Below are positions 47,435 to 57,640 of a stretch of DNA of 64,000 nucleotides, piece by piece. Numbering within the stretch: position 1 is the first letter of the stretch; each line of letters opens with the position of its first letter. The notes beneath the pieces were generated by a model. It worked only from the letters and a program-made list of their open reading frames with translations. It searched no databases and had not been told where the DNA came from. The position numbers were made by a program, and so were the translations under genes. Source of the DNA: Polytrichum commune (taxonomy: Eukaryota; Streptophyta; Polytrichopsida; Polytrichales; Polytrichaceae); contig OX485803.1 in NCBI GenBank assembly GCA_950295325.1, positions 49,987,554-50,051,553 on the forward strand. The letters are read 5' to 3'.

Positions 47435-47682
47435 TGTTAAGACTAGGCAATAGCCGGTGAGCGTAATGGTGCAAGTGACTAACAAGAGCCACGTGGTCGT
47501 ATATATATGTTCAAGACTAAGTACATTAATTGGGCTTAGCCGCCACTTAGTAGCCTACAATACTATGTTTAACTAACCCCGGACCCACTACCGCGGGGAT
47601 AGTGTAGCCACCTTCCGGAAGGCGGCTACCGTCATCTATATTCGGCTATAGGTCGTGAGGCTAGCTATAGGCTGCCTTAACA
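47435..47682 (-). repeat. 3' LTR of the young Copia element
   Basis: 248 bp. On the minus strand it begins TGTTAAGGCAG and ends CTAGTCTTAACA. It contains a TATATATA box, a CCACGTGG G-box core next to it, and a CCTTCCGGAAGG palindrome. The preceding polypurine tract is GAGGAGGAG (minus strand, just right of 47682). Confidence 0.95.
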
Positions 47683-47691
47683 CTCCTCCTC
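47683..47691 (-). other. Polypurine tract
   Basis: Reads GAGGAGGAG on the minus strand, directly before the 3' LTR. This is the expected plus-strand primer of an LTR retrotransposon. Confidence 0.75.
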
Positions 47692-47774
47692 GAACTATAG
47701 CGATTACCTCATTAAAAACTTTACTACTGTAAAAACCCAAAGGGGAAAACCAGCAATAAAGAAAAGAGTGTAAT

Positions 47775-50700
47775 CTAGTTCGAAGTGAGTTCGTGTAAGG
47801 TTTTCATTCCTGCCTCTAACACTAGCTTCTTATGCTTGTAAGCCGGTAAGGCCTTTGTAAGCATATCGGCTATATTGTTTTCGGATTCTATCTTCTTTAT
47901 CTCAATCTGGCCTGTTTCTATAAGGTCTTGAGCAAATCCGAATATATGTGGGCTGATGTGCTTCACCCGATCAGCCTTAATGAACCCCGTGTTCATTTGG
48001 GCGACACATGCTGCGTTATCCTCGAATATGACCGTTGGTTTGAACTTCTGGTTCATCTTGCATTGTTTTGCTAAGATCTCTTGCATTGTCCTTAGCCACA
48101 CCGCCTCTCTTGATGCTTCGTGAAATGCTAAGAGTTCGGCATGATTCGTGGATGTGGCAGTCACAGTTTGCTTGGCCGATTTCCATGATATTGGCGCTCC
48201 GTTCTTGATGAATATGTAACCGGTCTGAGACTTGCCTGTTACCTCATCTGTTTTGAATCCGGAGTCAGCATATCCTGTGATCTCGCCATTTGTGTCATTT
48301 CTATAGTATAATCCGAGGTCCTCCGTTCCTCTCAAGTATCGGAGTAGATGCTTGACGCCATTCCAATGGCGGGCCGTCGGCTTTTGACTGTGCCTCGCGA
48401 GTATGTTTGTGGCGAAGGCGATGTCCGGTCGCGTGTGTGTGGTTAGGTATGTGAAAGCTCCAACCGCTGTGAGGTATTTGGATCTATCCACGACCTCCTC
48501 CTCCTCCGAGCAAGGTTGGTACGGATCGTCTTCGCTGCGGCTCCTCCCGATCATTGGGGCGGCCAATGCGTGGGCTTGGTCCATGTTGAAGAATTTGAGT
48601 ACCTTGCGCGTGTAAGCTTGCTGGTGCAAGAGAATGCCACTTGGGAAGTGGTGAACCTGTAATCCAAGGCAGAATGTGGTCTTTCCGAGCAATTTCATGT
48701 CAAATTGAGCCGTGAGTAAGGTTTCCGTGTGCTTACATAATGCGGGTGATCCAATCAAGTTGAGGTCATCCACGTACACAGCCACAATTACATATTGTGA
48801 ATTCTGAGTTAATGTGAATATACATGGTAGGGTCTGGTCATGCAAGAACCCATGTGAAACCAAAAAATCTCGGAGTAGGTGGTACCACATTCTGCCGGCT
48901 TGCTTTAAGCCGTACAATGCCTTGTATATGCGAAGGCCTAAGAATCTCCCGGGTGCGGGAGTTGGCAGTTTCGGGAGGAAATCTGGAGGGGGTGAGATAT
49001 GCAACAACATGTCCAGGTTTCCATATAGATATGCTGTAACAACATCCATCAAATAGATCTCAAGTCTGAAATGAACTGCAAATGCCAGCAAGTACCTGAA
49101 TGTTGTGATATCAAGTACCGGTGCGTATGTTTGGTCGAAGTCCTCTCCTGGTCGTTGAGAGAAGCCTTGAGCAACAAGGCGGACTTTGAACCGAAGTAGA
49201 TCACCGTTGGCGTCAAATTTTCTAGAGAAAATGAGTTTGTGGCCAACTGGAGGTTTAGTGAGGTTAGTTGATACCTCGCCGAATACTTGGTGCTTCCTGA
49301 GGGATGCGTATTCGGATTCTAGAGCTTTGTTCCAATCGGGCCATTCCGGTGAGGCCTTGGCCTCGGCTAATGTGAGTGGATCCGGTGCAACCTCGGTGCT
49401 GAACGTGGTCCTTTGTACCTTAGTGGACTTGGAATTGAGAGGTGCCAACCGTTTGTTGGGTATGGTGTTACCTGTTCCAGGTAGTGGGTTTCTAAGCACT
49501 CTAGGTCCGGAGTAGAAACCATCGGGAATCTGTTCTGCAAGGTCCTTCAAGTTCAGAAGTTTGGTGACTTCGGTATCGGCTAGGGAGGTTCGAGGGTCCG
49601 GATTATGGGTTAATGTTTCCGGGGCCTGAAAGTTTAAGGGAACCTGCTTGACCGTGCGGTCAACCGGTGGAGTTGAGAATGTTTGTTCCATAAACTTACA
49701 GTTTACTAGCCTGGCTTTGAGGATGGCCCCGTTCTTGGGGTCCATATATCTGATGATGCTGGGTGAGTCGTATCCGAGGTAGATTGCCTCGGAGCGATGG
49801 GTACCAATGGTTCTTCGTTGTGGTTCAGGTACAGGTACCCAAACTTGGCAACCAAATACTCGTAAATGGGTAATATTGGGTGGCCGGCCGGCAATGAGTT
49901 CAAGGGGTGTCTGTTGGTTGAGTAAGGTTGGTCTCAACCTTAGGAGGGCTGCAGCATGAAGGACCGCATGGCCCCAAAATGAATCCGGTAACTTGGCATG
50001 AATGAGCAGGGGCCTAGTTACTAATTGGACTTTCTTGATGAACGCTTCCGCAAGACCATTTTGCGAGTGTTCATAGGGTACTGCATAGGTAAGGGTGATT
50101 CCTGTTGCGGTACAATAATCCTCAAATGCCTGTGATCGAAATTCTAATGCATTGTCCATCCGAAGGAACTTAACAGGGTGTTCAGGAAAATGGTTTTTAT
50201 AACGTATCAGAATTGCAAGAATTCTGGAAAATACAAGGTTCCTAGTGGTTAGGAGGGCTACCTCTAGGTGGCTCCCGGATGCATCTATGAGCACTAGGAA
50301 ATACCGAAATGAACTTGAAGGTGGGTTGATGGGTCCACAGATATCACCTTGAAGTCGGTGGAGCGGTGGCGGCAATTCGGTGGGGAGTTGCCAATGGGAC
50401 GGCCTCTTGATCATCTTGCCTTGAATGCACGCCTCACAGGGGGCTATCTTGGCAGCATCCGCGGATGTAAGGTTATGGCCGGCCAGAAGGGGAATCATCC
50501 TCCGAAATATAGTAGTGCCAGGGTGCCCAAGCCTTTTGTGCCATATATCTGAGAGGGCAGCCGCCGTGAGATATAGGCCAGTTTTCCGGGCTAAGTTGCG
50601 GTTTGTGGCAGCGGGGTCTCCCTCCTGTGCAACCGGGCCAACTTCTTCCTCAACCCTAGGGGCGGGGCTAATCGCTTTGATAGCGATCTCATATAGGCCG

Positions 50701-52073
50701 TCGACTCCCGCAACTGCGGTGGCGAGGGTTCTCTGTCCCTGCCTGAGTGCCAGCGCCTCTTCATCGTTCTCTATTGTGGTAGAGACGTGGATACCATTTG
50801 CCCTTAAGTCCCGGTAGCTGATCAGGCTCCGGGGGGCATCGGGAGCATACATAGCGTCCCGGCATGTTATCGGGTGGTCCCCGGGCAACAAAACAGTTGC
50901 TGTACCTTCTTTGAAGGTTATGTTTTTCTGTCCCGCTATTGTTGTAACGTGGCTAGTCCGCCAACCTATGTTACTAGCCGGGAATGAGAAAAACATTAAA
51001 CTCCTCAATATGGTATGTGTAGAGGCGCTGTCCAAGAGGGCAGCCTCCATACCTTGAGTCATTGGAGTTGTGACAGTCATGTAATTCTCTATATCCATAT
51101 CAGGGATGGATGGAATTTGGACTGCGTGAGATTCTCTATTTTGGCTACGTAATTTCTGTAGCTCCCTATACATCTCAATTACGTAAGCCGATGCTCGGCA
51201 ATCCCTAGCATAATGGCCTGGGCGGCCACATTTATGACATGAGGATGTGGATTGCTTTGAGGCTTTATGTTTTGGTGGAACATACCTCGGTTTTTGATCC
51301 CTAGGCTTGAATTTGAATGACCTAGGTGGAGGTCGGCGTTGGAAACCCCTTGGTGATCGGCGCGGTGCCTCCGAGAGGTGTACAGCCGGCGCTCCTTTTG
51401 ATGGTCCAGCAGCTATCATGGCGTGGATCTCACGTGCGGGCCTGGATTCTGCATTTTTAAGTAACATGGCCTGATGTTTCTCTGCGAGAAGGAGGTGAGA
51501 CATCAGTGTGCTATGTTTCTCAAATTTCATGTTTCGGTATTGCTGGGCAAGAATTGCAGAAGCAGGTGGAAAGGTGGAGAGAGTCTTATCGATCAGTTGA
51601 GCCTCGGTTACTGGCTCGTCGCAGAGGCTAAGCTGAGATGAGATTCGGTGGAGTTCCCCGTTGAATGAGAGTAGGTCGGGAAAGTCAAGGGCCCTGAGAT
51701 TAATCCAGTCATTTCTAGCCTCGGGTAGAAAGATGGTTTGTTCATGATGGAACCTGTCACGTAGCTGAGTCCACAAGTCAGCGGGGTGATCCACTTTAAT
51801 GTATTGTTGTCTCAGGGATGGGTGTATGTGCCTTCGGAGAAGAATCAATACTTGACATTTGAGAGAATCTGGTTGACCCTCGGCTGTAGTTTTATCAAGA
51901 TAGATAGTTGTCTCTTCGGCTCCTAGAGTTACCCTAGCATCATTTTCCCATTCTAGATAGTTTGACCCATCGACAGCAAGGGGAGTAAATTTGGTTTTCA
52001 TGTTTGCACCGATATTTGCTGGAGGTCGGTTTATGGTAGCTAATGTCACTCTCGGATTCGAAGATGATGCCAT
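47775..52073 (-). CDS. Intact Copia gag-pol polyprotein
   Basis: 1432 residues without a break. In order: gag (about 30-210), CCHC knuckle (CHKCGRPGHYARDC, C279-C292), aspartic protease (LLDSAST, Asp348), integrase HHCC region (H512, C546, C549) and core with D577, D640 and E676, then the pol linker with GCQVWVPV. Reverse transcriptase starts near residue 915, with LMDVVTAYLYG (D1010) and the YVDD site (1100-1103). RNase H follows with D1270, E1313, D1352 and D1403, the last in NNIADMLTK. All catalytic residues I can identify are present. Integrase before reverse transcriptase defines Ty1/Copia. The start ATG at 52073 gives MASSSN and follows a 0.9-kb leader. Gag and pol share one frame, so any excess of gag must come from another mechanism. 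Confidence 0.95.
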   Translation of the reverse strand: MASSSNPRVTLATINRPPANIGANMKTKFTPLAVDGSNYLEWENDARVTLGAEETTIYLDKTTAEGQPDSLKCQVLILLRRHIHPSLRQQYIKVDHPADLWTQLRDRFHHEQTIFLPEARNDWINLRALDFPDLLSFNGELHRISSQLSLCDEPVTEAQLIDKTLSTFPPASAILAQQYRNMKFEKHSTLMSHLLLAEKHQAMLLKNAESRPAREIHAMIAAGPSKGAPAVHLSEAPRRSPRGFQRRPPPRSFKFKPRDQKPRYVPPKHKASKQSTSSCHKCGRPGHYARDCRASAYVIEMYRELQKLRSQNRESHAVQIPSIPDMDIENYMTVTTPMTQGMEAALLDSASTHTILRSLMFFSFPASNIGWRTSHVTTIAGQKNITFKEGTATVLLPGDHPITCRDAMYAPDAPRSLISYRDLRANGIHVSTTIENDEEALALRQGQRTLATAVAGVDGLYEIAIKAISPAPRVEEEVGPVAQEGDPAATNRNLARKTGLYLTAAALSDIWHKRLGHPGTTIFRRMIPLLAGHNLTSADAAKIAPCEACIQGKMIKRPSHWQLPTELPPPLHRLQGDICGPINPPSSSFRYFLVLIDASGSHLEVALLTTRNLVFSRILAILIRYKNHFPEHPVKFLRMDNALEFRSQAFEDYCTATGITLTYAVPYEHSQNGLAEAFIKKVQLVTRPLLIHAKLPDSFWGHAVLHAAALLRLRPTLLNQQTPLELIAGRPPNITHLRVFGCQVWVPVPEPQRRTIGTHRSEAIYLGYDSPSIIRYMDPKNGAILKARLVNCKFMEQTFSTPPVDRTVKQVPLNFQAPETLTHNPDPRTSLADTEVTKLLNLKDLAEQIPDGFYSGPRVLRNPLPGTGNTIPNKRLAPLNSKSTKVQRTTFSTEVAPDPLTLAEAKASPEWPDWNKALESEYASLRKHQVFGEVSTNLTKPPVGHKLIFSRKFDANGDLLRFKVRLVAQGFSQRPGEDFDQTYAPVLDITTFRYLLAFAVHFRLEIYLMDVVTAYLYGNLDMLLHISPPPDFLPKLPTPAPGRFLGLRIYKALYGLKQAGRMWYHLLRDFLVSHGFLHDQTLPCIFTLTQNSQYVIVAVYVDDLNLIGSPALCKHTETLLTAQFDMKLLGKTTFCLGLQVHHFPSGILLHQQAYTRKVLKFFNMDQAHALAAPMIGRSRSEDDPYQPCSEEEEVVDRSKYLTAVGAFTYLTTHTRPDIAFATNILARHSQKPTARHWNGVKHLLRYLRGTEDLGLYYRNDTNGEITGYADSGFKTDEVTGKSQTGYIFIKNGAPISWKSAKQTVTATSTNHAELLAFHEASREAVWLRTMQEILAKQCKMNQKFKPTVIFEDNAACVAQMNTGFIKADRVKHISPHIFGFAQDLIETGQIEIKKIESENNIADMLTKALPAYKHKKLVLEAGMKTLHELTSN

Positions 52074-52961
52074 TTCAGGTCATCTAGGAATCTAGTAATA
52101 ACAAGGTAGCTTGTTGTAGATTATATACTAGAGTGATGATACTTTTTGATCTTAGCCTATTATGATATGTTCCAACAAAATGTATCTTTCGAAGTATAGA
52201 AATATACTTCGGTTTTAGTAAAAACGGAGGTTTCTACTAATTACTTGTAGTTCAGAGTCAAAGCACTGATAAGTGAATGAGAATGAGTAAGTAGGCTTAT
52301 CGGATGTCTAGGCTGCAGTAGTAGTTGGTTTCATTTGGCAGTAGAAGTTGGTTACAGTCGGCAGCAGCAGCTGGTTACAACGAAAGCTGGGTTTGACTGA
52401 TGCTTCAGACAGCAGTAGGGTGCAGCAAGAGACTGTATCTGCAGTGGTGAGGAGCTGTGTCCGCGGCCGTGGATTCTGTAGTTGCGGACAGCAAAGTTGA
52501 TATGTCCGCAGTAAAGAAGTATTATTTCTGCAGCAGATTAAAAACTATATCTGTATTATCAAAGGTGAGCTTTGTAGTAACAGAAAGAGATATAGACTTC
52601 TACAGCAGGTGTTAGATGTCTATTTACGGCAGCAAAATGCATTTGTAGTAGCAAAAAGTTTATCTGCATCACACTATATCTGTGGCAGCAGAGAATTAGG
52701 ACTATCTGCAGCAACAAAACAAATAAGAACTATCTGCCTGCAGCAAGTCTAATCAGTAACTCAATCCTCTAATGCTTGTGTTCTGATTTCTTCTAAAGTG
52801 GAGATCAGATGGACTAATGTGGGAGCAGCGCTTCCGCATGATGTAGCGGAGCGGAGAGAGAGAACTAGATAGTGAGCGGCAGTTTATATAGGGCTGAAGC
52901 GTAGTCTTGAGTGGGAAAAGAGAGGGAAAAAAAAAATTTGAACTAGGAGCTCTCAAGCAAT
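52074..52961 (-). other. Leader of the young Copia element with imperfect CTGCAG-type repeats
   Basis: Between the primer-binding region and gag. It is filled with imperfect short repeats built around GCAGCA and ATCTGCAG or its complement, with no coding content. Expected role is the untranslated RNA leader with packaging and dimerisation signals, which cannot be located by eye. Confidence 0.6.
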
Positions 52962-52975
52962 CGTGACTGATAACG
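52962..52975 (-). other. Primer-binding site of the young Copia element
   Basis: On the minus strand the sequence after the LTR end is CGTTATCAGTCACG. It contains the TATCAG core of the initiator tRNA-Met-type sites common in plant Copia elements but is not a perfect TGGTATCAGA. The contrast with the half-tRNA site at 38207 shows two different priming systems in this window. Confidence 0.55.
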
Positions 52976-53058
52976 TGTTAAGACTAGGCAATAGCCGGTG
53001 AGCGTAATGGTGCAAGTGACTAACAAGAGCCACGTGGTCGTATATATATGTTCAAGAC
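52976..53058 (-). repeat. 5' LTR of the young Copia element, R/U5 side
   Basis: 83 bp, identical to 47435-47517. Ends with the AAGAC copy of the target duplication of the inserted 2-kb element. The TATA box lies in this part, so the insertion separates it from the rest of U3. Confidence 0.95.
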
Positions 53059-53757
53059 TGTGAGCCCAAAAGGGTGCCCACATTTAGTCTTAGACCCTTG
53101 AAACGTTAGTTGATGCACTTTGAAGTAGCATGTTACTTCACAAAAATATAAAAAGAGTGAAATGTTAGTCTTAGAAGTACCATGTTGTAAGAGGCTAGGA
53201 TGTGAGTTGTTATTGTGTTTTTACCTTCGGAAGGATTTGAGTGAATGAGGATAGGTAAGGAGAACTTGGATTGAGTAGTTAGTGAGTAGGCTAGTACAAA
53301 TGGATGGAGACAACCAAAGTGACTCAAGAGGCAAGTGCATTCGAATTGGGATGAATGGAGGATCACATGGAGCGCACAAGTGGACCACCTCATCATGGCC
53401 ACTTAATGGGGAAGGCCCAAGGAAGAATGCAAGGTGGAGGATAAGCAAATTCTCAAAGCACCAATCAAATCACGAGTTAAGCATCGTGGTTTGAATTAAG
53501 TGGTGAGCGACGATTTGGGAAAGTAAGGGGAGAAAGTTATGGCGGCGGAAAGCGAAGGAGGCTAAGTTTGGGTTGAAGCATCCCAAGTTTGGTAAAGTGT
53601 GGTAGGTAGAAAGCCAAGGCTAGTTAAATGTTCGAATTAGGATCCTTGTTGATCATTTGAGGGAGGAAGGCTTAGAAGATAGGATTGGCGCCTACTAAGT
53701 AGGAGGAAATCTCAAGGGCTTATCGTGAGCCTTGAGGGTGCTTACCCCCTCAAGCTT

Positions 53758-53800
53758 ACTATATAATCCCTCATTCTTCCCTCACTCATCCTCTCTTTCC
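53758..53800 (+). promoter_or_regulatory. TATA box and CT-rich initiator region of the 2-kb element
   Basis: ACTATATAATCCC is followed by TCATTCTTCCCTCACTCATCC, typical of a plant promoter or LTR R-region start. The inverted relative has a comparable CT-rich tract about 57140-57290 (minus strand). Confidence 0.5.
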
Positions 53801-54274
53801 TTTGTGCTCCAAGGCACCCCACGAGTTATAAGTGTGGGTGTGGGAAGCCATATTGGAGCACATGTGTGTGCTTAGTTTTTAGTTTGAGAGCCAAGGCTTG
53901 TTAGCCTTGAAGAGGGCTTGACCTCTCGGTAGAATTAGTGTTGACGTGAAGGATTTTAAAATTAATTCATGATTCCAATTTGTGGTACTTAAAGTTCATG
54001 TTTTGAATACACGCGGTTGCAAGTTCCATGTTTAAGAGTTGAGCACTTGATGTTGTGATGAGTGCAAAAATATACTTGTGTGGATTAGTTAGTCTTAGTG
54101 AAGTTAGGAAATTCTCTCTCCCCCTCTCCTCTCTAGGATTTTAGGATTTTAGGATTAGAGAAGAATTGTGTGATTAGAAAGGGGTTGTTAGTAGAATTAG
54201 GGAAATTAGGTAGGAAGATTAGTTAAGGGCTTGAATAATTAGTGAGGTAGTTGGGGATTACAACTACAAAGTTG

Positions 54275-54420
54275 TGGGTTCATGAAGGAGCTGGGTTTAT
54301 GAAGGAGCTGGGTTTGTTTAGTTAGAAAGTAAAGAGCTGGGTTTATGAAGGACCTGAGTTTATGAAGGAGCTAGGTTTATGTAATTAGAAAGTAAAGAGA
54401 TGGGTTCATGAAGGAGCTTA
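54275..54420 (+). repeat. Imperfect tandem repeat inside the 2-kb element
   Basis: The unit GGAGCTGGGTTTATGAA and variants recur five to six times, with the spacer GTTAGAAAGTAAAGAG between some copies. A similar but different repeat (GCTAGTGCTAATTA units, about 56740-56870) lies at the corresponding place of the inverted relative. Confidence 0.7.
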
Positions 54421-54697
54421 GTAGATAGCCTACCTAATTAGCTCATAGACAAGTAGTTAGTTACATTATGCTAGTTAGTGTTATGGTGGCTTTCACAAGT
54501 AAATGTATTTGAGATTGACTATAGAGAATAGTGTTTTTTTTAACACTTGCATCCTCTCTTTAAAAATAAACCACGTGCACAAATTAATGGAGAATGTGGA
54601 GCACTCTCGCGATGGCAAGACAAAGGAAGCAAAGACCAAAGGTGCGAGGGAGAGATTGACATAAGTCACATAAGTATTTCTTAATACTTAAAGGCTT

Positions 54698-54910
54698 ATG
54701 TACGGTATGGAGACACCAAGTGAGACCTCTTATAGTAGCGATACGGAATACACAAGTGATAGTTCAAGTGGTAGTATAGAGTCAACGGCACGGACTCCAT
54801 TTAGGAGAGGGATATCCTTAAGGGCTTGTGTAGCTAAAGCGGCCGGATGGACGTTAGAAGCAAACAAAGACAAAATAGCACCCGAGCATAAGGAGGTTAA
54901 AATAACATAG
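54698..54910 (+). CDS. Unrecognised short protein encoded by the 2-kb element
   Basis: A 70-codon frame beginning MYGMETPSE, with a Ser/Thr/Asp-rich first half, then RGISLRACVAKAAGWTLE (54806-54859) and a charged 16-residue tail. The 18-residue block is present with identical amino acids in the inverted relative (56311-56364), where the codons differ at 11 bases, all silent. Such a pattern means protein-level selection. The tail after the block is nearly the same length in both (16 and 17 residues), so this is probably a protein C-terminus. The start codon is a guess; an upstream exon is possible. I do not recognise the family and propose no function. Confidence 0.6.
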   Translation: MYGMETPSETSYSSDTEYTSDSSSGSIESTARTPFRRGISLRACVAKAAGWTLEANKDKIAPEHKEVKIT

Positions 54911-55113
54911 TTAACTTGTGCATTCTCCACATACGTATTGAAATTGTACATTGAGTTGTTAAAAGTGAAATTCCAGTTAAATCCAAGACCACTTGAAGGG
55001 TGAACCTTGCACTATGGACTCATCCAAGTCCAAATCCAATACCGCGGAGGAATGTGAGCCCAAACCCACTACTCGGACTACGGACGCTTAAGGGTGGGGG
55101 GTTTGGCCTCACA

Positions 55114-55283
55114 AAGACTAAGTACATTAATTGGGCTTAGCCGCCACTTAGTAGCCTACAATACTATGTTTAACTAACCCCGGACCCACTACCGCGGGGA
55201 TAGTGTAGCCACCTTCCGGAAGGCGGCTACCGTCATCTATATTCGGCTATAGGTCGTGAGGCTAGCTATAGGCTGCCTTAACA
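55114..55283 (-). repeat. 5' LTR of the young Copia element, U3 side
   Basis: AAGAC duplication (55114-55118) followed by 165 bp identical to 47518-47682. Followed by the Copia target duplication GGAAG. Confidence 0.95.
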
Positions 55284-55288
55284 GGAAG

Positions 55289-55531
55289 GTTGGGATGGGG
55301 GACAATGTGAAGGGGTGGGAACATGGGAACTCCATTATTGGGAATGTGAATGGTGGGGTTTGGGCTTGTGAACATTGATGTTGGGGATTGGGAATGTGTG
55401 CAACATGGGAATAGTGATGAAGGGGTTGGGTTGCTACCAACGACCACTAACAACCCCCGTATTTTCAGCGAACTTGGCACTTCACGAAACAATGAAATAC
55501 GTAGGATGGGCGCCCCTAACATGCAACCCAA
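55289..55531 (-). pseudogene. Likely 5' part of the Harbinger-like ORF split by the Copia insertion
   Basis: A Pro-rich minus-strand frame whose 3' end joins in frame with PFLGFGDIQNTYLL at 47429 and lower once the Copia element and one target copy are removed. This shows an open frame at the insertion site, although the product is low-complexity and not diagnostic by itself. Confidence 0.4.
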
Positions 55532-55666
55532 TTGCTCCCCTTTATGGACCCGCCTTCATCAGGCCAACCAAAGTTCTAACCTTTAATCACTAGGGCTAGT
55601 AACTAAGGGTGGGGCTAGAGCTCATGCCATTTGGGTGGGCCCCAGTTAGCCAATTCACGACCTCTT

Positions 55667-57640
55667 GTGAGGCCAAACCGCCCACCCTTAAGCGTCCTAG
55701 TCCGGGTGAGGGAATGGATATCACATTCATGTTTCCACAACTCCATTTGACCAAACTCATGAGAACCCATTACGTTCCCCATCAATCAATGCACACCAAT
55801 CCATTCCACGATAATAATACAAGCGTTAACAAACGCTCTTCTCCATCATAACAATCAAAGTCTTCTCCTAGTTTTGCTAATAAGCTAACTGTCTAAGCTA
55901 ATGTTAAGCAACATTCTAATCAAATAACTACCCCCTAGCCTAAGGTAGCACCACAGGCTTCCCCATCTATATCACCTTGTTCCATCTTAAATCCCCTAAT
56001 TAAGTCTTTCCAGCCTATCCTCAATTCTTTTGCAACTGCAAAACCCACACCCTTGGGGCTGCCGAAAACACCAGCCCTTGGCTACCGAAAATACCAGCCC
56101 TTGGCTGCAGAAAATACCAACACCTTTTGTGAGGCCAAACCCACCACCCTTAAGCGTCCTAGTCCGGGTGATGGTTTTGAGAATCACATGTATCATATCA
56201 AAACTCGTGGTAGCATGAAATGTGACTTCTATCTCAATGGGCATCCACATTACTTAGAATCATGATGTTTTGTTAATGCTAGCCTCTTGAATAGGTAAAG
56301 CATTAGCCTTCTCAAGGGTCCAACCCGCGGCCTTGGCTACACATGCCCTTAAGGATATTCCTCTTGAAACCTTGGCATTGGCCAAGGTTTTCTCATTAGT
56401 GCTCTTGGCATCCGTGAGGTTATGGCATGTAGACTCCATGAAGCAATAACCTACTAACACTTTCAATCCTAAGTTTTTTAACCCCAATCCTTCTCCCTTG
56501 CATGGGCCAACCAATCTATTCTTATGTTTCACACCAATCAAGGCCTAAATTTATTCCATGATGAGAGTACAAGTGTTGAAAAACACTCTCCTCCGCGATG
56601 GACCTGCCAATACAATCTCACACCATTACACGTTTTTGAGATCACCACAAACTCCTCTCATGTCACGCCTTTAAGTTATGTGGTTAGCCCCATGGCCCAC
56701 ATTGAACTGCGACGGAAACTACCCGACAGTCAACCAAGCTAGTGGCTAATAAGCTAGTGCTAATGAGCTAGTGCTAATTAGCTAATAGACTAATGGCTAA
56801 TAGGCTAATGGGTCAGTGCCTAATAATCTAGTGCTAATTAGCTAGTGTGTTAATGGGCTAGAGTACCGGCCAACACTTAGTCTCGGTTTGGCTCCAGCAG
56901 CCTCCCGGCTGGCTTACAGTTAGTAAACCCAAGCACTAACCACTAAGCTTAAGCACTAATCGCTTAAGCACCTAACCAATTCACCAACTAATCAACTAAG
57001 CACCTAGATAATTTAAACACTAGATAACTAAAAGACTAACTAACTAAAACAACAAAATGACTAAACAACAACTAAATGACTAATACCCCCCTTGGGTTAC
57101 ACACACAACTCCACACACACGTCCCCACACACCTCCACACTCGAGAGAGGGGAGGAGTGAAACAAAAATTTGAAGAGAAAAAGAGAGAGAGAATGAGAGA
57201 GAGAATGATTTTGAAGAAGAGAGAAGAAAAGGTAAAGAGAGTGAACTTAAGGAGAAGGGAGGATAAGGGAGGAAGAGGAGAGATAGGGCATCCAATCACA
57301 ACCCCTTAACCTTCTCCCCCTTAGTAGGACCTCATCCTCTCCGCTAACCCTTCAACCCCTAAACCAACAAGAACACGTTCTAATTCAAACAATTAAATCA
57401 AAGGCACATCCCCTTGCCTCATCAAGCACTACTCCTCTAATCAAAACACTCCCTAATGTCACTAAGCTTCTAATTCATCACACAAAATGGCTTAAGGCCT
57501 AAACATAAATCCACACCAAGCCTCACTCTTTTTATACTTTTGATTGTTTCAATAACACTCCAATTGCAATTCTAAGTAGATCCTAAACATAAAACAAATA
57601 TGAGCACTCATTTTGGGCTCATAATTCTTGAAGGCCACTT
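55667..57640 (-). mobile_element. Older, inverted relative of the 2-kb element
   Basis: On the minus strand it starts near 57630 with ATGAGCCCAAAATGAGTGCTCAT, has an AGTATAAAAAGAGTGAGG block and a long CT-rich tract, and ends in GGTTTGGCCTCACAA at 56120 and again at 55667. The two ends lie in direct repeat with homologous sequence behind them (for example ACACTCTCCTCC and ACGCTCTTCTCC stretches), so a partial duplication or a second truncated copy is present. No target duplication is seen. It carries the conserved peptide block at 56311-56364. Tandem 23-bp repeats lie at about 56056-56125. Confidence 0.6.
56260..56541 (-). CDS. Short protein of the inverted relative, conserved block
   Basis: A 93-codon frame ending RGISLRACVAKAAGWTLE plus a 17-residue tail. 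Upstream of the block it reads KSTNEKTLANAKVS, unlike the Ser-rich stretch in the nested element. The block is identical in protein and differs only silently in DNA. Whether the whole frame is translated is uncertain; the block may be an exon end. Confidence 0.5.
   Translation of the reverse strand: MIGVKHKNRLVGPCKGEGLGLKNLGLKVLVGYCFMESTCHNLTDAKSTNEKTLANAKVSRGISLRACVAKAAGWTLEKANALPIQEASINKTS

Follow-up and report, generated by a model that had tools for sequence, protein, structure and literature searches.

We analysed a window of 64,000 nucleotides from Polytrichum commune (GenBank assembly GCA_950295325.1, contig OX485803.1, forward-strand positions 49,987,554 to 50,051,553; positions below count from its first letter) and found two copies of a small open reading frame (ORF) inside long terminal repeats (LTRs) of a Ty3/gypsy-type retrotransposon group. 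Both ORFs hold the same 18-residue core, RGISLRACVAKAAGWTLE. The translated genomic copies indicate that hundreds of LTRs of this one group encode the same tiny protein. The core residues are under purifying selection, and the ORF is almost certainly a selected small coding unit of this element lineage, presumably translated. The initial annotation of the window had left the element unnamed and had described the 18-residue block; the element is the LTR of a Ty3/gypsy-type retrotransposon, and the coding unit is the entire small ORF. All copy counts, junction counts and loci given here refer to one genome, the source genome. The features at the two sites are the following:

54806 to 54859, forward strand: core block of copy A, RGISLRACVAKAAGWTLE (from translation and pairwise comparison)
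56311 to 56364, reverse strand: core block of copy B, the same peptide (from translation and pairwise comparison)
54698 to 54910, forward strand: small ORF A, 70 codons from the ATG at 54698 (67 from the ATG at 54707) plus stop, with a type II N-terminus
56260 to 56439, reverse strand: small ORF B, 59 codons plus stop
54587 to 54664, forward strand: relic type I N-terminus, MENVEHSRDGKTKEAKTKGARERLT and stop, core lost (resembles aligned type I N-termini)

Purifying selection on the core residues

The two copies had been described as one identical peptide separated by silent changes only, and our comparison bore this out. The core DNA of copies A and B differed at 11 of 54 bases and at 0 of 18 residues, with ten of the differences at third positions and one at a first position, in a TTA/CTT leucine pair. 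When sets of 11 random substitutions were simulated in copy A, none of 200,000 sets retained 18/18 residues (mean 10.9, maximum 17). The ratio of non-synonymous to synonymous differences per site (pN/pS) for the pair was 0.034, a value in which the path averaging of the Nei-Gojobori method books one of the 11 differences (TTA/CTT) as non-synonymous.

The first protein search returned 1690 candidates, of which the best 150 were scored and all were perfect. Degenerate patterns for RGISLRAC and ACVAKAAGWT matched 678 and 945 sites genome-wide, two sets that overlap and include many near-identical young copies, while the reversed controls matched 0. The selection on a protein proposed by the initial annotation was measured, as it had suggested, by pN/pS over the block and by the state of the frame in other copies. 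From 81 core occurrences we dropped the two arms of an inverted chimera (L097), a copy lacking a codon (L095) and a copy interrupted by a stop (L117), and kept 77. The 52 distinct cores among these gave pS 0.588, pN 0.0386 and pN/pS 0.066. Frame damage in the core was rare: the 81 occurrences showed one stop, one one-codon deletion and the two arms of the single chimera. In L097 itself (C1:12623081-12623664), ORF A occurs twice in inverted, head-to-head orientation; about 80 bases separate the two copies, and both are cut within the core.

The constraint was concentrated in the core and not in the tails of the ORF. In type I (59 distinct ORFs), pN/pS was 0.480 for the N-terminus, 0.058 for the core and 0.526 for the C-terminus; the corresponding values in type II (12 ORFs) were 0.303, 0.073 and 0.550. 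The proposal that conservation acts on the nucleic acid, as an RNA structure or a binding site, with the shared peptide as a by-product, draws on the conservation of neighbouring non-coding parts, namely an upstream stem and the LTR end. However, the silent sites of the core are near saturation (pS 0.588) while its residues are kept, and 17 of 18 third positions vary. We rejected conservation at the DNA or RNA level only, which this silent-site variation contradicts and which we consider very improbable. The initial annotation had regarded identity running on undiminished through the non-coding flanks as a sign against selection on a protein, and had reported flanks diverged beyond alignment. 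That divergence holds for the tails of the ORFs, whose N-termini are unrelated between A and B, but does not hold for the final 34-65 base pairs (bp) before the LTR end, which align at 85-97%. Part of the non-coding LTR end is conserved too.

Copies had been picked by halves of the peptide, and we therefore scored the half that had not been used for picking. For these unselected halves, pN/pS was 0.121 over codons 1-6, in 66 copies with 28 distinct sequences, and 0.105 over codons 9-18, in 36 copies with 27 distinct sequences. A further set, unbiased with respect to the peptide, consisted of 20 of the 39 other places listed as matching the DNA downstream of copy B. The core was present in 19 of these 20, perfect in 12 and with one or two changes in seven, with 0 stops or frameshifts in the core; L140 was the sole place lacking it. 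The 19 copies gave pN/pS 0.115 among themselves and 0.050 against copy A, and outside the core they included one broken C-tail and one shortened N-tail. That the pattern is an artefact of choosing copies by peptide is scarcely credible and was rejected: the first lists were indeed picked by the peptide or half of it, with the best 150 of 1690 candidates scored, but the copies picked by downstream DNA alone contradict it.

Architecture of the ORF and its host elements

In the fetched copies the core sits in a short ORF of about 50-75 codons, with a start and a stop, in the 3' part of the LTR. Start and stop codons are retained around the core in most copies. The distance from core to stop is 13-21 variable residues, most often 16, leaving aside the two chimeric arms with 42. 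Type I N-termini (e.g. MENVED..K.KGA-RGISL) and type II N-termini (e.g. MEST..SSVESTARTRFT-RGISL) are unrelated, and the two types of ORF have only the core in common. Copy B has an N-terminal variant of its own and was grouped with type I in the counts. Copy A is type II, yet the type I relic stands directly upstream of it and ends before the core, an arrangement suggestive of recombination among families of LTRs. The type I element L063 shares its primer site with the copy L034 (L068), and the gag leaders of the two are related; types I and II are therefore one group of elements.

In a complete relative (L001, L021, L002), the two LTRs measure 2147 and 2210 bp, with 1 substitution in 2147 aligned bases plus one gap, and the target site duplication is ATAAC. 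The interior of this element is a single open gag-pol frame of 2086 codons with the Pfam order Retrotrans_gag, Asp_protease_2, RVT_1, RT_RNaseH, Integrase_H2C2 and rve. The Asp_protease_2 match is borderline (E 5.5e-5; 24.2 bits, just below the 24.3-bit cut-off). Since reverse transcriptase precedes integrase, the domain order identifies the element as a Ty3/gypsy-type LTR retrotransposon. The primer site by the 5' LTR agrees over 18 bases with the 3' end of a tRNA-Gly(UCC) gene to which CCA is added. Pfam, at E up to 10, listed neither a chromodomain, the mark of chromoviruses, within the final 188 codons nor an additional RNase H, the mark of Tat/Ogre/Retand elements, in the 109-codon stretch between RNase H and integrase. 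At two loci (L045 and L054) the same tRNA-Gly primer-site words follow LTR ends that are unrelated, and the core peptide is absent.

Around the two ORFs, the host elements and candidate promoter are:

53059 to 55113, forward strand: solo LTR carrying ORF A, 2055 bp, TGTGAG..CTCACA, Ty3/gypsy-type (from comparison with other copies)
53054 to 53058 (left) and 55114 to 55118 (right), unstranded: target site duplication AAGAC of the solo LTR (the empty site of the partner Copia LTR has it once)
53760 to 53766, forward strand: TATA-like box, a candidate promoter by sequence match only
47435 to 55283, reverse strand: young Copia element holding the solo LTR in one of its LTRs, target duplication GGAAG
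47775 to 52073, reverse strand: Copia ORF, 1432 codons
56128 to 57624, reverse strand: LTR of the B-type family, 3' end at 56128

The solo LTR differs from the 5' LTR of the complete element by 12 substitutions in 2055 aligned bases. The partner LTR of the Copia element (47435-47682) represents the uninterrupted, empty site, and the joined flanks of the solo LTR match it at 249 of 249 bases. Because the solo LTR interrupts a Copia LTR whose joined halves equal their partner, the Copia element inserted recently and the gypsy element more recently still, and the earlier statement that one copy lies within a very recent insertion holds for copy A. For the B-type LTR, we looked for the 5' end and a target duplication and found neither. 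Three instances of the conserved LTR end GGACGCTTAAGGGTGG..GGTTTGGCCTCACA lie within 1.1 kilobases (kb), at 55660-55712, 56122-56174 and 55082-55115, and a further LTR fragment therefore ends near 55670.

Upstream stem and splice-like loss of the ORF

A stem with a 4-base loop, AAGTGTT-TTTC-AACACTT, was present upstream of the ORF in 77 of the 81 occurrences with at least 5 of 8 pairs, and in 73 with at least 6. Simulated (Markov) sequence of the same composition gave a mean of 3.5 and a maximum of 9 of 81 (0.7 and 3 for at least 6 pairs). The stem often stands about 36 bases before the start in type I, nearer in type II and farther in the B type. Within the window the stems and the putative introns discussed below are:

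54530 to 54547, forward strand: conserved stem AGTGTT/AACACT at the type I position
54671 to 54690, forward strand: second stem, TAAGTATT/AATACTTA, directly upstream of ORF A
56572 to 56587, reverse strand: stem AGTGTT/AACACT upstream of ORF B
54642 to 54976, forward strand: putative optional intron from donor 1, containing ORF A, missing in 10 of 20 fetched A-type loci
54375 to 54976, forward strand: putative intron from donor 2, same acceptor, missing in 4 of 20 loci
54720 to 54976, forward strand: putative intron from donor 3 inside ORF A, same acceptor, missing in 2 of 20 loci

Among 29 distinct versions of the stem, two base pairs were replaced as a whole: U-A had become C-G in 6 versions, and G-C had become A-U in 6. 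Three pairs showed double changes, no more than in shuffles, of which 360 of 500 reached that number, whereas the double-change cells and the covariation score were reached by 0 of 500 shuffles, in a test limited by the fact that the versions had been selected for pairing. The compensatory changes probably represent only two events.

The ORF is kept in many related LTR families, but is absent from much of the youngest A family. Genome-wide we counted 288 exact junctions of LTR and primer site. Among the 36 junctions listed on C1, we fetched 20 loci without a perfect peptide match (L042-L061), and 16 of these carried one of the three deletions. The other four comprised one that keeps the ORF with a leucine-to-serine change, one rearranged otherwise and two that are an unrelated LTR with the same primer site. 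All three deletion types start with GT and end at one common AG. Exact counts across the genome gave 397 unspliced acceptors and 287 type-1 (donor 1) junctions; 844 exon-2 starts were also counted, with a pattern that covers the exon-2 start only. The GT..AG deletions look like footprints of splicing of a leader RNA before reverse transcription, and in the A family the ORF would then lie within an optional intron. From these deletions we infer that the ORF lies in the transcribed 5' leader upstream of gag.

Some elements without the ORF carry the deletion in both LTRs, e.g. at C1:63074016 and 63082991. We read four ORF-less interiors: L134 and L137 were open over 2086 codons, L135 had a stop and L062 had a 1191-bp deletion. 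Since gag-pol is still open in two of the four, elements can do without the ORF, at least for a short time, and the suggestion that its loss is confined to elements with damaged pol was rejected. The deletion in the ORF-less L062 (C1:772500-780000) has an in-frame length and spans reverse transcriptase and RNase H. Of 15 further loci without the ORF that were sampled there, 14 did not show this deletion and the fifteenth gave no match. Four of five ORF-bearing controls matched over the same stretch and one gave no match; the interior of control 13979166 probably ends early or is interrupted.

Possible functions and known systems

Our preferred reading, to which we give a probability of about 45%, is that the small ORF encodes a leader peptide acting in cis on the gag-pol RNA. 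Selection on residues, a position in the leader and removal by splicing together fit such a peptide, and ORF-less elements with an open gag-pol frame are expected of a regulator rather than of an essential part. Ribosomes starting behind the upstream stem would translate the small ORF, the invariant core of the nascent chain would contact the ribosome or a fixed partner, and this contact would hold back or gate translation of gag-pol downstream. Splicing out the ORF would leave a leader without the brake. The more specific form of this, in which the LTR encodes a nascent-chain (arrest) peptide that controls translation of its own gag-pol and leader splicing is the switch that removes the peptide, is put forward tentatively.

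Several observations weigh against the cis-acting leader peptide. Measured from the TATA-like box at 53760, the leader has 20 ATGs before ORF A, against 15.4 expected (standard deviation 3.8), and plain scanning would seldom reach it. The transcription start is a guess from this box only. ORF A is the longest ORF before gag in the assumed leader. In the 500 bases upstream of the start in 19 other copies, we counted 98 ATGs against 141 expected, a difference that is not decisive for scanning. The splicing is read from genomic deletions, and simple splicing before reverse transcription does not explain mixed LTR pairs: the ORF-less 5' LTRs at C1:934494 and C1:13850282 have 3' partners of the ORF-bearing type about 9 kb away, at C1:925585 and C1:13859657. 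Two LTRs hold both forms within 0.7 kb (C1:22140152/22140618 and C1:56693201/56693890). Recombination could explain both the mixed pairs and the LTRs with both forms. Finally, the 13-21 variable residues after the core are unlike the conserved C-terminus of the conserved-peptide upstream ORFs (CPuORFs) of plants.

An almost equally probable reading is that the ORF encodes an accessory microprotein acting in trans, whose short, invariant, helix-like core binds one conserved partner between loose tails, the leader being merely where the gene is located. Gag, or a host factor of RNA export, silencing or translation, would be candidate partners. A near-invariant core with fast tails and swapped N-termini fits a docking motif equally well, and the many upstream ATGs suggest the need for a dedicated transcript. 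A retroelement protein needed for the export of unspliced genomic RNA is described, in the parts of the sources available, for CERV of the Caenorhabditis elegans element Cer1 (PMC10309623, PMC12786077). Against this, elements without the ORF have multiplied (287 exact junctions), which argues that its product is not needed in cis in each round. The small-ORF proteins had no Pfam match at the gathering level, only weak chance-like matches below the cut-off (SLBB 0.01), and a search of PDB sequences gave no match. An AlphaFold model of ORF B with A had a mean predicted local distance difference test score of 56 and Foldseek found no match among PDB folds, although at such low confidence a fold search means little. 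A scan of IMG/VR gave 119 pattern matches and no confirmed relative.

An improbable alternative is that the ORF contributes one exon to a bigger protein made from spliced RNA, for example by extending Gag at its N-terminus, in which case we see just part of the selected unit. Splice sites appear to be in use near the ORF and, in one case, within it. However, most copies have retained a start and a stop on either side of the core, constraint on the tails is weak (pN/pS 0.30-0.55), all three donors remove the core with the same acceptor, and no GT is kept within the core codons.

Like the present ORF, Sag of mouse mammary tumour virus, located in the 3' LTR, is a protein-coding ORF within an LTR; the protein is unrelated. 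In the shunt layout of pararetroviruses, the stem comes after the short ORF. The leader ORFs of plant pararetroviruses, which serve ribosome shunting (PMC5902531), resemble our case in that a reverse-transcribing element has short ORFs together with RNA structure in its leader, but here, as far as the available text of that source allows the comparison, the peptide sequence is conserved and the stem stands before the ORF. CPuORFs are likewise short ORFs in a leader (here a putative one) with residues under purifying selection, and mostly keep the C-terminus and stop, according to the accessible part of PMC2075485. The present ORF differs from them, as there described, in lying on a mobile element, with a central conserved part and the whole ORF in a putative optional intron; because it lacks a conserved C-terminus with a fixed stop, we did not class it as a CPuORF. 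CERV is similar, by description, as an extra retroelement protein linked to splicing and unspliced RNA, but in the available text it comes from a spliced mRNA of the internal region (PMC10309623). The additional ORFs of plant LTR retrotransposons (Grande gene23, RIRE2, Retand) occupy the internal region in the accessible part of PMC7264820, in most cases between pol and the 3' LTR. Like the present one they are extra conserved ORFs beside gag-pol; in the reviewed families they occur in most copies and have a function described there as unknown, while the ORF reported here is tiny, inside the LTR and removable by putative splicing. A literature text search, which covered journals outside subscription, found neither RGISLRACVAKAAGWTLE nor pieces of it; in the texts it reached, no plant LTR was described as holding a conserved small ORF or an optional intron. 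Additional retrotransposon ORFs as such are already known; the present one differs in lying inside the LTR and in being apparently optional through splicing.

LTRs are usually regarded as non-coding, but hundreds of copies here hold a coding unit, and the core of this unit is one of the most strongly conserved parts of the element. Because this unit sits in the LTR, annotation pipelines that mask LTRs would miss it. The splice footprints would be a genomic record of leader RNAs that were packaged and reverse transcribed. If the ORF encodes a leader peptide or a microprotein, related elements with and without it, both with open gag-pol in one genome, would be natural experiments. If the arrest-peptide reading is true, an expanding Ty3/gypsy lineage would carry a brake made of a peptide plus splicing.

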